Origin: Halarcobacter sp.
GTDB taxonomy: Bacteria > Campylobacterota > Campylobacteria > Campylobacterales > Arcobacteraceae
Direction: 5' to 3'
Assembly: GCF_963675975.1 (NCBI RefSeq)
Contig: NZ_OY780939.1
Coordinates: forward strand, 2,046,001-2,110,000
Length of the DNA stretch: 64,000 nucleotides
Under the pieces are notes generated by a model. It made no database searches. It was not told where the DNA came from and was given only the letters and a program-made list of their open reading frames with translations. A program made the position numbers and the translations under genes. Positions 39,296 through 63,609 of this stretch are shown here, piece after piece (position 1 is the stretch's first letter; every line of letters begins with the position of its first letter).

Positions 39296-39336
39296 AAAAG
39301 AGGTATTTGTTAGTTTTATCTAGCAAATACTCTTTT
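39296..39336. terminator. Bidirectional terminator between DASS carrier and selB
   Basis: Long hairpin with GTATTTGTTAG paired to CTAGCAAATAC (one G-U pair), extended by AAAAGA/TCTTTT past a bulged G. It sits across the selB stop codon between two convergent genes and has A/T tracts on both flanks. Confidence 0.75.
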
Positions 39337-41148
39337 ATCTTCTTCTTTTTTTATCTCTGATAAAGTATCTAAATAATCCAAGTAGCTAATAAGATATTTT
39401 CTACTAATAGGATATTTTTCTTTTAAATTTTTAAGATTTATATATCCATCATTTTTTATAATATTTTTCATCTCATTTACAATATTTGTAAGGCTTTGAG
39501 CATGGATAAATATATTATGTTGAAGTCTTATTAGTACTTTCTTTGAACATAAAGATTTTAAAATATCATCTCCAGTTTTTCTATCTAAATCCATCTCATC
39601 ATATATATTGTATGGAGCTGTAGGAGTGATATTCTCATTTTCAAATCTTTTTAAAATTAGAGTTTCAAGTGATTCTTTTATATTTGTTGTAATATTTGGG
39701 TTTTTATATAGGTTTTTTTCTTTTATTAAAAAACCTTCACATTCAAGTTCATCTAAAACTATTTGTATAAAACTTTCACTTGCCCATTTTAATCTTAAAG
39801 AAATTGATTGATTAGAAAGTAGGGCAAACTGATTTTTATTATAGATATTTAGAATAAACTCTTTTATAATCTCTTTTGTTGAAGAAGGATAAATTACAAG
39901 TGCTTTTTCATCAATAAAAACATCTTCAATATTTTTTGCATACTCTAAAGCTTTTTCATGACTTAAAGCAAATCTCTGTGCTGAAGAGATAAGTCCTAAC
40001 CCTTTTTTATGAGCTTTTATTAATATTTCATAGGCTTCTTCAATATTTTGCTTCTTAAGTGCTTCAAGAAGTTCTAATTTTTGTGTTTTTTTCATAGGGT
40101 CAACAATTGGATTTAAAACAACTGCTCCTGCTATTGTAATATTTCCTTGTCTTATTATTAGTTTTTCATTGTATATTGAAAATATATCATCTTTTAGTTT
40201 TAGTGTTGCAAATCCAGATTCTAATTCATCTTGACTATTAAATAGTAATACCTTAGCTTCAACTTTTTTAGAGCCTATAAAAATTGAATAATTTGTATTA
40301 TGTTTTAATTTTTTTGTTTTTAAACTATTAAAAGAGATATTAATTGTGTTAAAACCTCTTAAATATCCTTTTTTTGAAATTAAAAAACCTCTTTGTATAT
40401 CTTCTTTTTTTATACCTGATAGATTAATTGCTGTTCTATTTGAGATATTAGAAGTTTCTACCTCTTGTCCATGAACTTGAAGTTTTTTTACTCTAGCTTC
40501 CCTTTTTATATCACAAATAAATACTTTGTCATTTAAAGATATTGGTTTCCCAAGTGTGGTACCAGTTACAATTGTACCTGCTCCTTGTAAAGAAAATATT
40601 CTATCTACATAATATCTAAAAAAGTTTTCTTCGATTTTTGTATTTGCATCCAAGGCAAAAAGTTTATCTTTTAACTCTTCAATAGATTTTTTATCATATA
40701 TAGAAACAGCAGTAGAAAAAAGAAGATTAAAATCAAAACTCTTAACATACTCTTCAATCTCTTGTATAATATTTTCTAGTTGATTCTCTTCTACTAAATC
40801 TTTTTTGGTAACTGTTAAGATGGCATTTTTTACACCCAAAAGATTTAATATCTCTAAGTGTTCTATTGTTTGTGGCATAATCTTTTCAGTTGCACTAACA
40901 ACTATCATTACACAATCAAAACTAAAAGCTCCGGCAATCATATTTTTTACTAGTTTTTCATGTCCTGGAACATCTATAAAAGCAACATTTTTTTCACCTT
41001 TACTCATATTAGAAAAACTCAAATCAATAGTAATACCTCTTTGTTTTTCCTCTTTTGTACTATCCCCTTCATAACCATTTAATGCTTTTATTAAAGCAGT
41101 TTTTCCATGGTCAATATGTCCACAAGTTCCTATAATATAATTACTCAT
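39316..41148 (-). CDS. selB: Selenocysteine-specific elongation factor
   Basis: A 610-residue GTPase that carries Sec-tRNA to the ribosome at UGA codons with a SECIS hairpin. N-terminal GTPase motifs are GTCGHIDHGKTALIKAL, DVPGHEKLV and TKKDLV; EF-Tu-like beta domains follow, and the C-terminal ~240 residues are the winged helices that bind SECIS RNA. It overlaps selA by 8 bp. Its targets in this window are selD and both fdhA genes. Confidence 0.95.
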   Translation of the reverse strand: MSNYIIGTCGHIDHGKTALIKALNGYEGDSTKEEKQRGITIDLSFSNMSKGEKNVAFIDVPGHEKLVKNMIAGAFSFDCVMIVVSATEKIMPQTIEHLEILNLLGVKNAILTVTKKDLVEENQLENIIQEIEEYVKSFDFNLLFSTAVSIYDKKSIEELKDKLFALDANTKIEENFFRYYVDRIFSLQGAGTIVTGTTLGKPISLNDKVFICDIKREARVKKLQVHGQEVETSNISNRTAINLSGIKKEDIQRGFLISKKGYLRGFNTINISFNSLKTKKLKHNTNYSIFIGSKKVEAKVLLFNSQDELESGFATLKLKDDIFSIYNEKLIIRQGNITIAGAVVLNPIVDPMKKTQKLELLEALKKQNIEEAYEILIKAHKKGLGLISSAQRFALSHEKALEYAKNIEDVFIDEKALVIYPSSTKEIIKEFILNIYNKNQFALLSNQSISLRLKWASESFIQIVLDELECEGFLIKEKNLYKNPNITTNIKESLETLILKRFENENITPTAPYNIYDEMDLDRKTGDDILKSLCSKKVLIRLQHNIFIHAQSLTNIVNEMKNIIKNDGYINLKNLKEKYPISRKYLISYLDYLDTLSEIKKEEDKRVFAR

Positions 41149-42490
41149 TTATAATCTCTTCAATTTTTAGTTTAATAATGTTTAGTTCATCATCTTGAAT
41201 TGTTCTCAAGTCCAATAAGAATTTTTCATCTTCAATTCTTCCAATAATATTTTTACTTCTAAATAATTTTTCGATTTTATTTGGTTTATAGTCTTTAAAA
41301 TTTATATTTAAAGCTATTGATGGAATTTTTTTATTTGGTGTTGTTCCTCCACCAATTACTGTTTGTGTTTCTAAGATATTACAATCACAATATTTATCTA
41401 TCATCTGTTTTAATTCTTGAGCTTTTTGTTTTAGTTCATCTTGTGTTTTAAAAAGCATTTTCATAGTTGGAATATTCTCTTTTTGATTTAGTAAAAGAGA
41501 TTTCATACTATCTTCTAATAATGCTAAAGTAAGTTTATCTACCCTTAACATTCTTAATAATTGATTCTTTTTTAATTCATCAATATATTTCTTTTTTCCT
41601 ACTATAATTCCAGCTTGAACAGAACCTAAAAGTTTATCCCCTGAAAAACTCAACAATGAAGGTTTGTATTTCATATAGTCTAACACTGATGGTTCTTTAT
41701 CTTGCAGTCCATAAGGCAAGTCAACAATATGTCCACTTCCCATATCATAATAGTCTATCAATTTGTTTTCATTTGCTATTTCTACAATCTTGTCAAACTC
41801 CACTTCTTTGCTAAAACCTTCAATTGTATAGTTTGATTTATGAACCTTCATTAATATTGAAGTGTTTTCATTGATAGCATTTTGATAATCTTTTTCATGG
41901 GTTTTATTTGTAGTTCCAATCTCTTTTAATATTGCACCACTACTATTCATAACATCTGGAATTCTAAAACTTCCACCAATCTCTACAAGTTCACCTCTGC
42001 TTACAACTACTTCTTTGTTTTTAGCAAAAGTGTTTAATATCAAAAAAACAGCACTTGCATTGTTATTTACAATAAGTACATCTTCACAAGCTAAAAGTTC
42101 TTGGGCTATTTTAGAAATATGTGAATAACGTTCACCCCTTTTACCTTCTTTTAAATCATATTCTAAATTGTTGTATGAAGTTGCTATATCTTTTACTCTC
42201 TCAAAGGCATCTTTATCAATTAAGCTTCTTCCTAAATTTGTATGAATAATTACTCCCGTTGCATTTATAACTTTTTGTAAAGAGGAAGAGGTGATGTTTT
42301 TATATTTATTTTTTACTTTCTCAATTAGTTTTTCTTCATCAATTGAGTCAACTTTTTTATTTAAAATATCTTCTCTTAATTTATTAATTACATCTTTTGA
42401 AATGGAAGTTATAAGTGCTTTTGAATAATTATCAAATGCTGTATTTGAGACAAATTTATCTATTTTAGGAATAGACTTAAGTAAAACCAT
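41141..42490 (-). CDS. selA: L-seryl-tRNA(Sec) selenium transferase
   Basis: A 449-residue PLP enzyme converting Ser-tRNA(Sec) to Sec-tRNA(Sec) with selenophosphate. INATGVIIHTNLGRSL is the family start, and SFSGDKLLGSVQAGIIVG carries the PLP lysine. AAGGG lies before ATG 42490. It forms a two-gene operon with selB and is divergent from the tRNA-Sec gene 53 bp away. Confidence 0.96.
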   Translation of the reverse strand: MVLLKSIPKIDKFVSNTAFDNYSKALITSISKDVINKLREDILNKKVDSIDEEKLIEKVKNKYKNITSSSLQKVINATGVIIHTNLGRSLIDKDAFERVKDIATSYNNLEYDLKEGKRGERYSHISKIAQELLACEDVLIVNNNASAVFLILNTFAKNKEVVVSRGELVEIGGSFRIPDVMNSSGAILKEIGTTNKTHEKDYQNAINENTSILMKVHKSNYTIEGFSKEVEFDKIVEIANENKLIDYYDMGSGHIVDLPYGLQDKEPSVLDYMKYKPSLLSFSGDKLLGSVQAGIIVGKKKYIDELKKNQLLRMLRVDKLTLALLEDSMKSLLLNQKENIPTMKMLFKTQDELKQKAQELKQMIDKYCDCNILETQTVIGGGTTPNKKIPSIALNINFKDYKPNKIEKLFRSKNIIGRIEDEKFLLDLRTIQDDELNIIKLKIEEIINE

Positions 42491-42543: not shown

Positions 42544-42643
42544 GGAGGGCATGTGACCCTGGTGGGCACCGCAGGCTTCAACCCTGATCGGAGGCTTTGA
42601 TGACAAACGCCTCGGTAGGTTCAATTCCTACGCCTTCTCGCCA
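42544..42643 (+). tRNA. selC: tRNA-Sec (anticodon TCA)
   Basis: A 100-nt tRNA with the special Sec layout: long D-arm (GTG-CCC paired to GGG-CAC around TGGT), anticodon loop CTTCAAC with TCA, a long variable arm with GAGGC/GCCTC, T-arm GTAGG-TTCAATT-CCTAC and encoded CCA. The acceptor GGAGGGC pairs with GCCTTCT; the exact first base is uncertain by one. It reads opposite to selA/selB and selD, and ends one base before the 3' end of selD. Confidence 0.93.
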
Positions 42644-42644
42644 A

Positions 42645-43682
42645 TTAATAAACTATAAGAGGTGTAACTCCTCTAGGTATAACTTCTCCAATAATAGTAG
42701 CATAACCAAAAGTTAAATCTTCAACTTTTTTAATATACTCTTTAGCATCATTTTTATCCATAGCAATCAATAGACCACCTGAAGTTTGTGCATCACAATA
42801 CATTTGATAACATTTAGAAGTAGGGCACATAATAGTTGTTTTATCTTCTAAATATTTCATATTTCTTTTTGTTCCTCCTGGAACTACACCTTGGTCTGCA
42901 AATTCTTGGGCATCTTTCATAACAGGAACTATTCCACAATGTATTGCAAAAGATGTTATATCTGATGTAGATTCAAGTGCATGTCCTAAAAGACCAAAAC
43001 CTGTAATATCAGTACAAGAACTAACATCATATTCTCTTAATATTTTTGATGGAAGATAGTTTAATGTTTCCATCACTTTTATTGCTTCATTTTTGGTTGA
43101 CTCACTAATTAAATCTCTTTTAATAGCAGTTGTTAATATTCCCATTCCTAATGGTTTTGTCAATACTAATACATGACCTATTTTTGCTGTATTATTTTTA
43201 TATATTTTATCTGGATGAATCATACCCGTAACTGAAAGTCCATAAAACATTTCAGGTGCTTCAATTGTGTGACCGCCCATTAATAATCCACCACACTCTT
43301 TTATCTTTTCATTTCCACCTCTTAGGATTTCTCCTAAAGCTTCTCTCTCATGATTTTTTCTGTCAAAGCCTACAATATTTAGTGCAGTTTTTACTTCTGC
43401 ACCCATTGCAAATATATCAGAAAGAGAGTTTGCAGCAGCTATTTTCCCATAAATATATGGGTCATCCACAACTGGCGTTATAAAATCAAGTGTTTGAACT
43501 AACGCTTCATCATCATTTAATTTATAAACACAAGCGTCATCACTTGTATCAAATCCAACAAGAACTCTGTCATCGCATGGTACTAAGTTGCTAATAGTTT
43601 GTTTTAGATCTCCCGGACCTAATTTTGCAGCTCAACCAGCAGCTTGGACAAATTTTGTTAGTTTATATTCATCATTATTCAT
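42645..43682 (-). CDS. selD: Selenide, water dikinase, selenocysteine-containing
   Basis: The true gene starts at ATG 43682 (AGGA five bases ahead) and reads through an in-frame TGA at 43634-43632. The N-terminus is MNNDEYKLTKFVQAAG-U-AAKLGPGDLKQ, so the TGA takes the place of the catalytic Cys/Sec residue 17 and the neighbouring Lys follows as usual. The full product is 345 residues, normal for SelD, which makes selenophosphate for SelA. Starting after the TGA (for example 43469) would delete the active site. A SECIS-like hairpin follows the TGA. Confidence 0.94.
43604..43634 (-). promoter_or_regulatory. SECIS-like hairpin at the selD Sec codon
   Basis: On the minus strand, counting T of TGA as 1, bases 13-19 (TTAGGTC) pair with 25-31 (GATCTAA) with one G-U, leaving loop CGGGA at 20-24. 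Stem distance and G-rich loop match the bacterial SECIS layout and the fdhA hairpins in this window. Confidence 0.7.
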
Positions 43683-44092: not shown

Positions 44093-45187
44093 ATGGAAAG
44101 AAGAAACTTTCTTAAAAGTTCAGCACTACTTTCAACTACAGTGCTAATTAACCCTAGTTTTGCATTTGCAAAAACAGAATCAAATCCTTTTGGAATTAAA
44201 GATGGATTTAGAAAATTTACAATCAAAAATGATTACAAACTTGAAGCAAGTAATGAAGTAACTCAACTTTGGGTTCCAGTTCCATTAACATCTAAATATC
44301 AAGAATTAGTTGATATAAAATTTGATGGAAATTATGAAAAAGCAGAAATTGTAAAAAATCCTTATGATACAAAAGTTCTTTATGTAAAATGGGCAAAAAG
44401 TGATAAAGAAAGAGTATTAAATGTTACTTTTGATGTTATTACAAACCAAAAAAGCCTTGATTTATCAAAAGCTGATGGTAAAGAAATATATAGTGATGAA
44501 GTAAAAGTATTCTTAGAGCCAACTAAACATATTCCTGTTACAGAAAAAATTACAGCTTTAGCAAATGATATTACTAAAAATGCTAAAACACCATTAGAAA
44601 AAGCACAAGCAATTTATGATTGGACAGTTACTACTATGTATAGAGACAATAGTGTTGTAGGTTGTGGACTTGGTGATGCAGGTAAAGCAATTGAAGAGAA
44701 AATCTATGGTGGAAAATGTACAGATATTAGTTCTGTATTTGTTGCACTTCTAAGAAATGCAAATATTCCAGCTAGAGAAGTATTTGGTATTAGAGCAGGT
44801 AAATCAAAAATTTCTAAAGTTTGTGGAAAAGCAGATGAGAATGGTTTTGCAAAAATCACTGGTGGTCAACATTGTAGAGCAGAGTTCTTTATTAGTGGTT
44901 TAGGTTGGGTTCCAGCTGATCCTGCTGATGTTACAAAAGTAAGATTAGGAGAAAAATTAACTAACGAATCTGAAAAAACTATCCAAACTAAAAACTTCAT
45001 GTTTGGATCTTGGGAAATGAACTGGGTTGCATTTAACTACGCAAGAGATTTTGTATTAAATCCTAAACCAGCACAATATCCTCTAAATATGTTAGGATAC
45101 CCTTATGCAGAAGTTGGAGAAGATGCACAAAACTACTATGACCCAAAAGGTTTTGCATATTCTTATACTTCTCAAGAGAATAAATGA
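44093..45187 (+). CDS. Tat-exported transglutaminase-like protein
   Basis: A 364-residue protein with a twin-arginine signal (RRNFLKSSALLSTTVLINPSFAFA). The transglutaminase core has Cys209 in YGGKCTDISSVFVALLRNANIPAREVFGIR, His260 in GGQHCRAEFF and Asp near 276 in PADPADV, so the triad is intact. Tat export suggests it folds in the cytoplasm, perhaps with a cofactor. The next two genes, four bases overlapping and then 2 bp apart, are MerT- and MerP-like. Function could be peptide cleavage or crosslinking; it is a classic transglutaminase core rather than a LapG-type BTLCP. Confidence 0.85.
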   Translation: MERRNFLKSSALLSTTVLINPSFAFAKTESNPFGIKDGFRKFTIKNDYKLEASNEVTQLWVPVPLTSKYQELVDIKFDGNYEKAEIVKNPYDTKVLYVKWAKSDKERVLNVTFDVITNQKSLDLSKADGKEIYSDEVKVFLEPTKHIPVTEKITALANDITKNAKTPLEKAQAIYDWTVTTMYRDNSVVGCGLGDAGKAIEEKIYGGKCTDISSVFVALLRNANIPAREVFGIRAGKSKISKVCGKADENGFAKITGGQHCRAEFFISGLGWVPADPADVTKVRLGEKLTNESEKTIQTKNFMFGSWEMNWVAFNYARDFVLNPKPAQYPLNMLGYPYAEVGEDAQNYYDPKGFAYSYTSQENK

Positions 45188-45510
45188 AAAATTTTATAGT
45201 TCCGATAATAGGTGCAGTTATTACTGCACTATTATCAACTTTATGCTGTTTACCGGCATTTTTATTTTTATTCTTTGGTGTTTCAGGTGGAATACTAACT
45301 TATTTTACTACTTTAGAATATACAAGAATCCCTTTAGCTATTTTATCAGTAGTATTTTTTCTTTGGGGAATCAAAAATCTTAATAAAAAAGTTACTTGTA
45401 AATGTACTAGAAAAAATATAACAACAAATGTATTGATTTTTTCAGCTATATTAATTTTACTTTTTGCACTACTTTTTTATCCAGAATTAATATCTTATGT
45501 AATGGACTAA
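45184..45510 (+). CDS. MerT-like membrane protein
   Basis: A 108-residue, three-helix protein. The first helix contains the adjacent cysteines STLCCLPAF followed by GVSGGILTYF, the hallmark of the mercuric transporter MerT; a second Cys pair (TCKC) lies in the cytoplasmic loop. It overlaps the transglutaminase stop and is followed 2 bp later by a MerP-like gene. MerA and MerR are absent, so the metal may be copper, zinc or another soft metal rather than mercury. Confidence 0.75.
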   Translation: MKNFIVPIIGAVITALLSTLCCLPAFLFLFFGVSGGILTYFTTLEYTRIPLAILSVVFFLWGIKNLNKKVTCKCTRKNITTNVLIFSAILILLFALLFYPELISYVMD

Positions 45511-45512
45511 TT

Positions 45513-45791
45513 ATGAAAAAAATTTTTTTAATACTATTTATTGCAGTTTCAGTTTATGCTTCAAAATTATCAGTGATAAAAGTTGAAGGTATGCATTGCC
45601 CTTTATGTACTACAGCAGTAAAAAAGGCTGTTAAATCATTAGATGGTATTGAAAAAGTTTCAGTTAAACTTAATACAAAAGAAGTAAAAGTTACATATAA
45701 CGATAATGTAAAATTAGAAGATATCTTAACTGCTATAAAAACAACCTCTTATGAGGGTATAGAGATTTCTACAAAAAAACTTAATCAATAA
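45513..45791 (+). CDS. MerP-like periplasmic heavy-metal-binding (HMA) protein
   Basis: A 92-residue protein with a signal peptide (about 1-17) and one HMA domain whose metal site is GMHCPLC, then AVKKAVKSLDGIEKVSVKL. It is the expected periplasmic partner of the MerT-like protein upstream, handing a metal ion to it. The ion is not determinable from sequence. Confidence 0.85.
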   Translation: MKKIFLILFIAVSVYASKLSVIKVEGMHCPLCTTAVKKAVKSLDGIEKVSVKLNTKEVKVTYNDNVKLEDILTAIKTTSYEGIEISTKKLNQ

Positions 45792-54892: not shown

Positions 54893-57733
54893 ATGGGTAA
54901 TAATTTACTCAATGACTTATCTTTGAAAATGGGAAGAAGAAATTTCCTTAAACTTGCTTCAATAGGTGCTGGAGTTGGTGTTACATCAATGTTCGCATCA
55001 AGTAATAGTGTTAGAGAAGCTAGTGAAGAAGAGATTAAAAATCCATTTCCTGGATCAAAGAAAGTTAAAACAATATGTAGTATATGTTCTGCTGGTTGTG
55101 GAATAGTTGCAGAAGTACAAAATGGTGTTTGGGTAAGACAAGATGTTGCACAAGATCACCCTATTAGTGAGGGTAGTCATTGTTGTAAAGGTATTGACCA
55201 AATAGATTTAGTTAAAAGTAAACAAAGGGTTAAATATCCTTTAAAAAAAGTAAATGGAAAATGGGAAAGACTTTCTTGGGAAACAGCCATTAAAGAGATC
55301 TCAGAAAAAATGCTTAAACTTAGAGAAGAGAATGGTCCAGATGTGGCTATGTTCTTAGGTTCTGCAAAATTCAATTTACAACAAGCTTTTTATTTTAGAA
55401 AATTTGCTGCTTTATGGGGTACGAATAACATAGATCACGTAGCAAGAATTTGACATAGTGCAACAGTTGCCGGGGTGGCAAATACATGGGGTTATGGTGC
55501 TATGACAAATCATTTTGGTGATGTTGTTGGACATTCTAAAGCGATTTTTATGATAGGTGCGAATTCAGCAGTTGCAAATCCAATTGGATTTAAACATATG
55601 CTGCAAGCAAAAGATAGAAATAATGCAAAATTAATAGTTGTGGATCCAGTATTCACAAAATCTGCTGCAAAAGCGGATCACTACTTGAGAATTAGAACTG
55701 GTACAGATGTTGCTTTTATTTATGGATTATTACATGTGATTTTCAAAAATGGCTGGGAAGATAAAAACTTTATTGAGAGTCGTGTATATGGAATGGAAGA
55801 AGTTAGAGAAGAAGCAAAAAAATGGACACCGGAAGAGACTTCCGATGTAACTGGTATTCCTGCATCTCAAATTGTTCAAATTGCTACATTATTAGCAAAA
55901 ACTAAACCTGCTACAGTTGTATGGGCACTGGGAATTACTCAACACAGTACAGGTACATCAAATACAAGAATACTTCCTATTTTACAATTAGTTCTTGGAA
56001 ATATGGGTAAAAAAGGTGGAGGATGTAATATCATTAGAGGACATGATAATGTTCAAGGTTCTACTGATATGTGTTGTCTTGCTGATAGTTTGCCAGGATA
56101 TTATGGATTAGGTGAAGCATCTTGGAAATATTATGCAAAAGCTTGGGGGCTTGATTTTAATTGGCTTCAAAGCAGATTTGCAGCTCCTAAATGGATGAAT
56201 GAAAAAGGTTTCTCACTTGCAAAATGGTGGCAAGGTGTACTTCAAGAAGAAAAAACATACTCTTCAAGTCCAATTAGAGCTTTATGGGTTCAAGGTACGG
56301 GTATTACATCAATGGCACAAACTGCAAAAGTGCAAGAGGCATTAGATAAATTAGATTTATTAGTTGTTGCTGAACCATTTGTTAATGAGGCTGCTGTTAT
56401 TACTAGTAAAAAAGACAATATCTATATTTTGCCAGTTGGTACACAGTTTGAAACAGAAGGAAGTGTAACAGCAACAAATAGATCTTCTCAATGGAGAAGT
56501 AAAGTTGTTGACCCATTATATGAATCAAAAACAGACCACGAAGTTATGTTTGAATTTGCGAAACAGTTTGGTTTTTATGATGAATATGTTAAAGCTATGA
56601 AAATGGACGTTGTAGATGGTGAATATAAACAAGTTAAAGATGATTTTAATTGGCCTGATGATGCATCAAATGAACTTGCAAGAACAGTAAAAACTATTGG
56701 TCTTGGTGGTTGGACTGCAAAAAGACTTAGAGAACATCAAGAAAATTGGCATATGTTTGACCCTATATCTTTAGAAGGTAGAGGAAAGTACAAAGGTCAA
56801 TATTATGGATTACCTTGGCCAAGTTGGGATACTAAACATCCTGGAAGTCCAATTCTATATGATGTTGATACACCTATGAGTCAAGGTGGTATGGGATTTA
56901 GAAATAGATTTGGATTGGAACATGATGGTGTTTCTCAATTACCAGATGAAAGTGTATCTGTAAAAGGTTCAGATATTAAAGGTGGATACCCAGAAATAAC
57001 TAAAGCTAACATTGAAGAGGTTTTAGGAATAAAACTTACAGATGAAGAAAAAAGAAAAATGGGTGCAAACTGGAAAGTTGACTTAAGTGGAATTATCCAA
57101 GAAAAATGTAATGAAAAAGGTGTTTGTGTTTATGGAAATGCTAAAGCTAGAGCTAAAGTATGGACATTCCCTGACCCTGTTCCAAAACATAGAGAACCTA
57201 TCCACTCACCAAGAATGGATTTAGTAAGAAAATATCCAACTTATGAAGACCAAACAAATAACTTTAGAGTTGATGTTAGATTTAAATCTGAACAAACAGC
57301 ACAAGATTGGTCAAAAGAGTTCCCAACAATGCTTGTAACAATGAGGGTTGTAAACTTAAGTGGTGCTGGTATGTTAGAAAGAACAAGTAAATATCTTTCT
57401 CATATTACACCTGAGATGTTTGCACATATAAATCCTGAACTTGCAGCTCAACATGGCTTAAGAGATGGAGATATGATGTGGTTACATTCACCACAAGGTA
57501 CAAAAATCAAGGTTCAAGCACAATATAGTGATAGAGTAACTCCAGATAGAATCTCTTTACCATATAACTTTGCTGGTGTTATGCAAGGTGTTGATATGAG
57601 TGCAAACTATCCAGAGGGAACTAAGCCTTATGCAATAGGTGAGAGTTCAAATACTATTACAAACTACGGGTTTGATATTATCACTCAGATACCAGAGTTC
57701 AACGCTGGTTTATGTAGAATTGAAAAAGCATAG
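54893..57733 (+). CDS. fdhA: Formate dehydrogenase catalytic subunit, selenocysteine-containing (copy 1)
   Basis: One 946-residue protein reading through TGA at 55451-55453 (Sec187). Tat signal GRRNFLKLASIGAGVGVTSMFAS directs it to the periplasm. [4Fe-4S] Cys ligands are in CSICSAGCGIV and HCCKG; the sequence around Sec is DHVARI-U-HSATVAGVANTWG, the molybdenum/tungsten ligand position of FdnG-type enzymes, with His following. The C-terminal domain binds the two pyranopterin cofactors. It oxidises formate to CO2 and feeds FdhB/FdhC. Splitting it at the TGA would give two false genes. Confidence 0.96.
55451..55492 (+). promoter_or_regulatory. SECIS element of fdhA copy 1
   Basis: TTGCC (55467-55471) pairs with GGCAA (55477-55481) around loop GGGGT, starting 16 bases after the T of TGA. 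Position and G-rich apical loop fit bacterial SECIS. The whole stretch is nearly identical in copy 2. Confidence 0.75.
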
Positions 57734-60783: not shown

Positions 60784-63609
60784 ATGTCACAAAGTACATA
60801 TGAAGCACTGAATGCAAGAGTAGGGAGAAGAGCTTTTATTAAAATGGCTGCTATTGCTACTGCTGCAGGTGCTACTAGCGCTTTGGCAAATGATGGTGTA
60901 ACTAGAGAGGCTACGGCTGAGGAAGTAAAAAATCCTTTCCCAGGGTCTACAAAAGTTAAAACTATCTGTAATGCATGCTCTGTTGGGTGTGGTATTATTG
61001 CTGAAGTACATAACGGTGTTTGGGTAAGACAAGAGGTTGCACAAGACCATCCTATTTCATTAGGTGGGCATTGTTGTAAAGGTGCTGATATGATTGATAT
61101 GGTTAGGTCTGAAGTTAGACTTAAACATCCAATGGTAAAAGAGAAAGGTAAATGGAAAAGAATCTCTTGGGATGAAGCCTATACTAGAATCTCTGATAAA
61201 ATGAACGAACTACATAATACTGTAGGTTCAGATGCGGTTCAATTTTTAGGATCAGCGAAAATGAATTCAGAGCAAGCTTATTATTTTAGAAAGTTTGCTG
61301 CAATGTATGGAACAAACAATATAGATCATCAAGCTAGAATCTGACATAGTGCAACAGTTGCCGGTGTGGCAAATACATGGGGTTATGGCGCTATGACTAA
61401 CTCACTTGGAGATATCCAAAACGCAAAAGCTATTATTATATTTGGAGCAAATCCTGCGGTTAATCACCCAGTTGGTTTCGGACATTTTTTAAAAGCTAAA
61501 GAAAGAAATAATGCGAAAATTATTGTTGTTGATCCAGTTTATACAAAAACTGCTGCAAAAGCGGATCATTACTGTAGAGTAAGACCTGGTACAGATATTC
61601 CATTTATGTATGGAATGTTACATCTTATCTTCAAAAATGGATGGCATAATGAAAGTTTCATTAACGATAGAGTTTATGGAATGGACGATGTTATGGAAGA
61701 AGCTAAAAAGTGGACTCCAGAGTTAGTTGAAGATGTTACAGGAGTTCCTGCTGATAAATTAATTCAAATAACAAGATTATATGCTAAAAACACTCCAGGT
61801 ACATTAATCTGGGCAATGGGTTTAACACAACATACTATTGGTTCATCTAATACAAGATTAGCTCCAATTTTACAACTTGCTCTTGGAAATATGGGACAAG
61901 AAGGTGGTGGAACTAACATCTTAAGAGGACACGATAATGTTCAAGGTGCTACAGATATGGGTTGTTTATCTGATACACTTCCAGGATATTACGGATTATC
62001 TGAAGGTTCATGGAAATATTTTGCTAAATCTTGGGGAATTGATTTTGAATGGCTACAAGGTAGATTTAAATCACCTGAATGGATGGGTAAAAAAGGTTTC
62101 ACATTAGCTAGATGGTGGGCTGGTGTACTTGATGGTAAAAATGGTAATGACAAAATTGACAATGCTGGAACAAACTTAAAAGCTTTATTTGTAATGGGTA
62201 ATGGTATTACTTCAATTGCACAACAAGCTAAAGTTAAAGAGGGTCTTGACAATTTAGAAATGTTAGTTATCAGTGATCCATTTGTAAATGAAGCTGCTAT
62301 TTTAACTGATAAACAAGATGATGTATTTATTTTACCTGCTGCAACACAGTTTGAAACAAGTGGTACAGTTGTAGCTACAAATAGAACTGCACAATGGAGA
62401 AATAAAGTTATTGAACCAATGTATGAGTCTAAAACAGACCATGAAGTTTTATTTGAATTATCAAAAAGACTTGGTTTTTATGAACAATATACTGCAGCTA
62501 TGAGAGGTGATAAAAAAGACTTTACATGGCCAGAAGATGCAACTAATGAGATTGCAAGAATCATTAAAACTATTGGTTTAACTGGATGGACAGCAGAAAG
62601 AGTTAAAAAACATACTGAAAATTGGCATATGTTTGACCAAATCTCTGGTAGAGGTTATGGTGAAATGAAAGGTGAATATTATGGATTACCATGGCCTTGT
62701 TGGACAGAAAAACACTCTGGAAGTCCAATTCTTTATAACATCGACAGAAGTGTTGCTGACGGTGGTATGGGATTCAGAAATAGATTTGGATTGGAGCATG
62801 ATGGAGTTTCTCAATTAGCAGGAAAAGGTAGTGCACCAAAAGGTTCAGCTAATCCTAATGGTTATCCAGAAATTACAAGAGATAACATTGAAGAGGTTCT
62901 TGGAATCAAATTAACTGAAGATGAAAAACAAAGAATTGGTAAAAACTGGAAAGTTGATACTTCAAATATTATTGCTGAAAAATGTATGGAAGCAGGTGTT
63001 GCACCTTATGGAAATGCAAGAGCAAGAGCAAAAGTATGGACATTCCCAGATCAAATTCCAATGCACAGAGAGCCATTACACTCTCCTAGAGCAGATTTAG
63101 TTAAAAAATATCCTTCTTATGCTGATAAAGGAAACCACTTTAGAGTTGATACTAAGTATGTTTCTAAACAAGCAGAGAAAGATTGGTCAAAAGAGTTCCC
63201 AATTAACCTTGTTACTGCAAGACTAGTTAATATGAATGGTGCAGGTATGGAAAATAGAGCAAGTAAATATTTAGCTGCTTTAACTCCAGAAATGTTCTGT
63301 AATATTAACCCTGATTTAGCAGGAAGAATGGGAATTAGAGATGGTTCTATGATGTGGATTCATTCACCAGAAGGAACTAAAATTAAAGTTAAAGCTAAAT
63401 ACTCTCACGCAGTTAGTGAAGATAGAGTTTGGTTACCATTCCATTTTGCTGGACATTTCCAAGGTGAAGATTTATCTCAGAAATATCCAGAAGGATTAAA
63501 ACCTTATGCAGTAGGTGAAAGTGCAAATACAGTAACTAACTACGGTTATGACATCATTACTCAGATTCCTGAGACTAAAGGTGGATTATGCCGAGTAGAG
63601 CCAGCGTAA
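60784..63609 (+). CDS. fdhA: Formate dehydrogenase catalytic subunit, selenocysteine-containing (copy 2)
   Basis: One 941-residue protein reading through TGA at 61342-61344 (Sec187, the same residue number as copy 1). Tat signal GRRAFIKMAAIATAAGATSALA; [4Fe-4S] ligands in CNACSVGCGII and HCCKG; Sec context DHQARI-U-HSATVAGVANTWG. Long stretches match copy 1, such as GLPWP, GGMGFRNRFGLEHDGVSQL and KVWTFPD. It is probably a separately regulated isoenzyme made by tandem duplication. Confidence 0.96.
61342..61383 (+). promoter_or_regulatory. SECIS element of fdhA copy 2
   Basis: TTGCC (61358-61362) and GGCAA (61368-61372) flank loop GGTGT. The 42 bases from the TGA differ from copy 1 at a single loop base. 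Confidence 0.75.

Follow-up and report, generated by a model that had tools for sequence, protein, structure and literature searches.

Selenophosphate synthetase of a Halarcobacter genome as a probable selenoprotein with its active site behind an in-frame TGA

Does the selenophosphate synthetase (SelD) encoded in the stretch of 64,000 nucleotides analysed here (the window) itself contain selenocysteine (Sec), and would it then depend on its own product? The question comes from the reading frame. Under the standard code, the longest open reading frame at selD starts at GTG 43469 and encodes 274 residues, whereas the minus-strand frame that runs from ATG 43682 to TAA 42645, once its single in-frame TGA (codon 17) is decoded as Sec, yields 345 residues. 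This matters for annotation, since the standard-code call drops the first 71 residues of SelD and, with them, the Sec loop and the active site. An earlier note, made from the sequence alone, had placed the SelD N-terminus behind the TGA, with ATG 43682 as the start and Sec17 at the catalytic position, and had warned that automatic callers would start at 43469 and lose the active site. Both statements hold: the TIGR00476 profile and the alignment to PDB 3u0o agree on the N-terminus, the standard-code frame is shortened as described, and all coordinates given there for SelD are correct.

The selD profile TIGR00476 scores 360 bits on the 345-residue reading, against a cut-off of 125, and covers residues 7-312. 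In the alignment with Escherichia coli SelD (3u0o), which belongs to the same family over its full length, residue 17 corresponds to Cys17, and Lys20 and the DDA motif at positions 48-50 are present; the E. coli enzyme shares Lys20 and the DD motif but has Cys17 in place of Sec, and recoding is not needed there. At the 5' end of the gene, ATG 43682 is preceded by AGGA and is the first start codon after an in-frame TAA located 15 bases before it; a spurious join of open reading frames as the source of the 345-residue reading was excluded. SelD is present in one copy in the 3.27 Mb single-contig genome, in which a hidden Cys-type backup SelD was sought and none was found.

Table 1. Features of the selD locus, of the Sec machinery and of further TGA-bearing genes, with positions in the window, and related Cys-type selD genes given as loci
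Feature	Position or loci	Strand	Description
selD, selenophosphate synthetase	42645..43682	-	345 aa via one TGA as Sec17; last codon TAA
Sec codon 17, in-frame TGA	43632..43634	-	corresponds to Cys17 (catalytic) in E. coli SelD
bacterial SECIS-type hairpin	43604..43622	-	7 bp here; loop CGGGA 43615-43611
selC, tRNA-Sec, anticodon TCA	42544..42639	+	Rfam RF01852 48.2 bits; ARAGORN
selA, L-seryl-tRNA(Sec) selenium transferase	41141..42490	-	TIGR00474 572.7 bits
selB, Sec-specific elongation factor	39316..41148	-	TIGR00475 293.9 bits, cut-off 242
fdhA copy 1, formate dehydrogenase-like alpha	54893..57733	+	in-frame TGA (Sec187); similar 5-bp hairpin downstream
fdhA copy 2, formate dehydrogenase-like alpha	60784..63609	+	in-frame TGA (Sec187); UUGCC/GGCAA stem drawable
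Cys-type SelD with SECIS remnants	L034, L035, L037-L046, L048, L049, L051, L072-L077, L121-L123		mostly keeping GGTCCGGG and the stem

The sequence 3' of the selD TGA, GCUGCAAAAUUAGGUCCGGGAGAUCUAA, can be drawn as a 7-bp stem closed by a CGGGA loop, with 16 nt between the UGA and the loop; five of the pairs (43620-43616 with 43610-43606) are conserved among relatives, as is an invariant loop G at 43614. The dimensions lie within the bacterial SECIS model, which sets an apical loop of 3-9 nt, an upper stem of 4-16 bp, a UGA-to-loop distance of 16-37 nt and a G within the first two loop positions (PMC13188914), the loop here being 5 nt long with G at position 2. They also agree with the epsilonproteobacterial SECIS, described as having 5-6 bp and an invariant loop G (PMC4607533). 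When considered as a single sequence, the hairpin is weak. Its predicted energy is -5.2 kcal/mol for the 40 nt from the TGA and -5.6 for 48 nt, and the guideline of -7.5 kcal/mol or below (PMC13188914) is reached only when bases upstream of the TGA are taken in, with -14.1 for a 69-nt stretch. The 40-nt stretch folds no better than its shuffles, the 69-nt stretch is likewise not unusual against shuffles, and Rfam gave no bacterial SECIS match at this hairpin, even at a permissive threshold. Single-sequence folding was thus rejected as proof of a SECIS, and the support for more than chance is comparative.

The comparison takes in 111 SelD genes of the order, in which codon 17 is TGA in 77, Cys in 32, Leu in one and degenerate in one. 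Within the family, SelD was found in 73 of 104 genomes, at 74 full-length places, of which 54 have one TGA and 20 have none (18 Cys, one Leu and one degenerate when read at the codon). The nearest relative, G068, whose SelD is 96% identical, carries the TGA, as do most near orthologues. The loop G falls on the third position of codon 23, a position that is G in all 77 Sec genes, where a synonymous redraw leads one to expect 5.9; the codon is CCG in 74 of them, CTG in two and TCG in one, so that the G is kept even where the residue is not Pro, and CCG accounts for just 6.9% of the remaining Pro codons in these genes. The 5-bp stem is complete in 75 of 77 (20.3 expected), and all five pairs occur together with the loop G in 75 (1.6 expected), although, given the common descent of the genes, such counts of stems and codons are not independent. 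Compensatory changes are seen at pair 14-24 (GU, GC, CG or AU) and at pair 15-23 (UA or CG). Across the Sec genes, with 67 distinct sequences, the five inner pairs are formed in 99-100%, against 67-83% in Cys genes. Taken over all seven pairs, the share formed is 81%, and sliding the partner by 1-3 bases lowers it to 26-49%. The SECIS-like hairpin that the earlier note had seen after the TGA is therefore present, with stem covariation and an invariant loop G across the 77 Sec genes, and it offers a clean case of codon choice revealing an RNA signal within a coding sequence, namely an otherwise rare CCG in nearly all Sec genes.

The hairpin extends to genes that have Cys at the codon: the complete stem and loop G are retained in 23 of the 32 Cys genes, against 0.5 expected on synonymous redraw, while in the related Cys genes L044 and L045 the stem is eroded, largely via synonymous changes. 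In a SelD tree from which the first 30 codons had been left out, well-supported branches carry at least 9 changes of the Sec/Cys label, and the best count is 11; such counts do not by themselves give the direction of change. The remnants fit Sec ancestors with Cys descendants, in line with the Sec-to-Cys conversions with SECIS remnants described by Zhang et al. 2006, one fifth of which are in SelD (PMC1794560). Each of the family's 18 genomes with a Cys-SelD has a full selB, and conversion to Cys thus does not end Sec use; judged from the 32 relatives with Cys, Sec at codon 17 of SelD is replaceable and not indispensable.

The rest of the known Sec machinery adjoins selD, in a cluster from 43682 to 39316 with the order selD (-), selC (+), selA (-) and selB (-). 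The selC gene converges on selD and runs antisense within the selD-selA-selB direction; in 28 of the 28 loci where ARAGORN found the tRNA-Sec gene, it follows the 3' end of selD on the other strand, often only about 10-20 bases away, and this orientation could possibly balance selC against selDAB. Divergent from selD, at 44093-45791, lie genes for a transglutaminase-core protein, a MerT-like membrane protein and a Cys-type HMA/MerP-like protein, which are related to NCBIfam families with selenoprotein members (NF045683, NF041115).

SelD as the sole selenoprotein was considered and rejected, as two fdhA genes in the window also carry a TGA, and Sec use in this genome thus does not rest on SelD alone. 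In both, the TGA is codon 187, the Sec position of the family, within the motif RI-U-HSATVAG. After the TGA, both genes can form a UUGCC/GGCAA stem whose loop begins with G, and folding predicts this stem only in copy 1. The copies belong to two tandem formate dehydrogenase-like gene sets, and automatic callers would cut each fdhA at the TGA, leaving one fragment of 186 aa and a large one.

The Sec-SelD arrangement is already known and well documented in this bacterial group. In Epsilonproteobacteria such as Campylobacter, Helicobacter and others, Sec-SelD and its SECIS have been described with Sec at the Cys17 position, a complete selABC, an apical hairpin of 5-6 bp with an invariant loop G just 3' of the TGA, and SelD as both a part and a product of the machinery (PMC4607533). 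The present case is alike in all these features; no substantial difference was found, and the locus adds another member, from the Arcobacter group. Helicobacter mustelae, in which Sec-SelD is the sole selenoprotein (PMC4607533), shows the same self-dependence, whereas here the two fdhA also appear to use Sec, and the Sec system is not kept for SelD alone. A SelD of another phylum (PDB 2yye, 2zod) has a closely similar catalytic loop, (U/C)AAK-x-GPGDL, and its crystallised chain has Cys at the site; we take the species to be Aquifex aeolicus and the native residue there to be Sec.

Taken together, the gene almost certainly encodes a Sec-containing SelD of the usual Campylobacterota kind, with Sec inserted at the UGA via SelB and the hairpin. 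By analogy with the known pathway, the ribosome would encounter UGA as codon 17, Sec-tRNA-Sec would be brought in by SelB on the hairpin that closely follows, and translation would run on to the full enzyme. Sec17, in a mobile N-terminal loop, would then act as the catalytic nucleophile in the formation of selenophosphate from selenide and ATP, and SelA would use selenophosphate to make the Sec-tRNA-Sec on which synthesis of the next SelD and of both fdhA products depends. This pathway leads one to expect that Sec is inserted in vivo, that Sec17 is catalytic and that SelD depends on its own product.

Several other readings have to be weighed against Sec insertion. A TGA that arose by sequencing error or recent mutation of a Cys codon is easy to imagine, given that a single base separates TGA from TGT and TGC and that 32 of 111 orthologues have Cys, but the same codon is TGA in 77 genes of many separate assemblies and the hairpin is constrained beyond the protein sequence; we consider error excluded, and error and mutation together have a probability close to nil. 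The earlier note had named two observations that would count against Sec: an error for TGC or TGT, which the 77 orthologues with TGA and their constrained hairpin contradict, and Cys in orthologues, which is true of a minority yet does not argue against Sec here, because most Cys genes keep a remnant hairpin, while the 96% identical relative and most near orthologues keep the TGA. It can also be proposed that SelD starts at GTG 43469 and that the upstream part is a remnant. Being the longest standard-code frame speaks for this start, but it would remove the catalytic loop and a region that aligns from residue 2 of E. coli SelD, the supposed remnant is conserved in orthologues of 80-96% identity, and the genome holds no separate SelD, which leaves the proposal practically without weight. 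Readthrough of the TGA by a Trp or near-cognate tRNA instead of Sec is extremely improbable as well. Low-level readthrough of UGA is general biology, and it might contribute to getting the loop going once SelD has been lost completely; nevertheless, a complete Sec system adjoins the gene, the hairpin is conserved, and the alternative found at codon 17 in orthologues is Cys, the usual exchange partner of Sec.

With Sec insertion as the preferred reading, the self-dependence of SelD can be addressed. There is one Sec-type SelD and no Cys-type copy, and selU/mnmH, the selenouridine synthase that would make a second use of selenophosphate, was not detected in this genome (it was found in only 4 of 104 genomes of the family); SelD would thus depend on its own product, a dependence that is closed on paper and follows from the parts. 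The autocatalytic loop claimed in the earlier note stands to this extent, as a statement of dependency. Whether it is also regulatory is another matter. The autoregulatory idea for Sec-SelD is said to date from Guimaraes et al. 1996 in PNAS, and if the feedback were regulatory, the question posed in 1996 would become testable in a bacterium with a single SelD. The Sec codon might make SelD a selenium-responsive feedback switch, with regulation as the reason why Sec is kept, and the closed dependence, with one Sec-type SelD and no second use of selenophosphate detected in the selU/mnmH search, speaks for it. However, the repeated Sec/Cys changes on well-supported branches, in a family whose Cys genomes kept selB, mean that such feedback is dispensable, and a catalytic advantage is a simpler reason for Sec, which makes regulation as the reason unlikely. 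More speculative still, and distinctly improbable, is a bistable selenium switch in which the loop would collapse below a threshold and restart only via residual SelD or UGA misreading, the frequent loss of Sec in relatives then marking a switch given up.

Some SelD genes in other genomes stand out. The oddest one met, outside the window, is a full-length open homologue of 343 aa in genome G084 (L050:1498-2529, minus strand), which is 63% identical to the Sec-SelD of the sister genome G085, lacks the Sec/Cys loop and has altered DD, GGH and TDITGFG motifs. Pairwise dN and dS between the two genes are 0.29 and 1.5, with the change concentrated in the N-terminal, active-site half; searches of G084 detected neither selA nor a full selB and gave no tRNA-Sec match above the cut-off, and no other close copy of the protein was found among 379 genomes of the order. 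It may be a protein that descends from SelD and is non-catalytic, in loose resemblance to animal SPS1, or else an early pseudogene. Genome G060 (L007:2529-1501; same contig in L133) has TTA (Leu) at the Sec codon with the SECIS-type hairpin intact, alongside selA, selB, tRNA-Sec and three TGA-bearing molybdopterin oxidoreductases, and the TTA is either an assembly error or a very recent loss. Finally, genome G055 encodes two Sec-type SelD (C8:75280-76308 and C8:117057-118055; L020, L091), which are 75% and 52% identical to the SelD of the window, and the second groups with the SelD of another family, which suggests that it was acquired via transfer.
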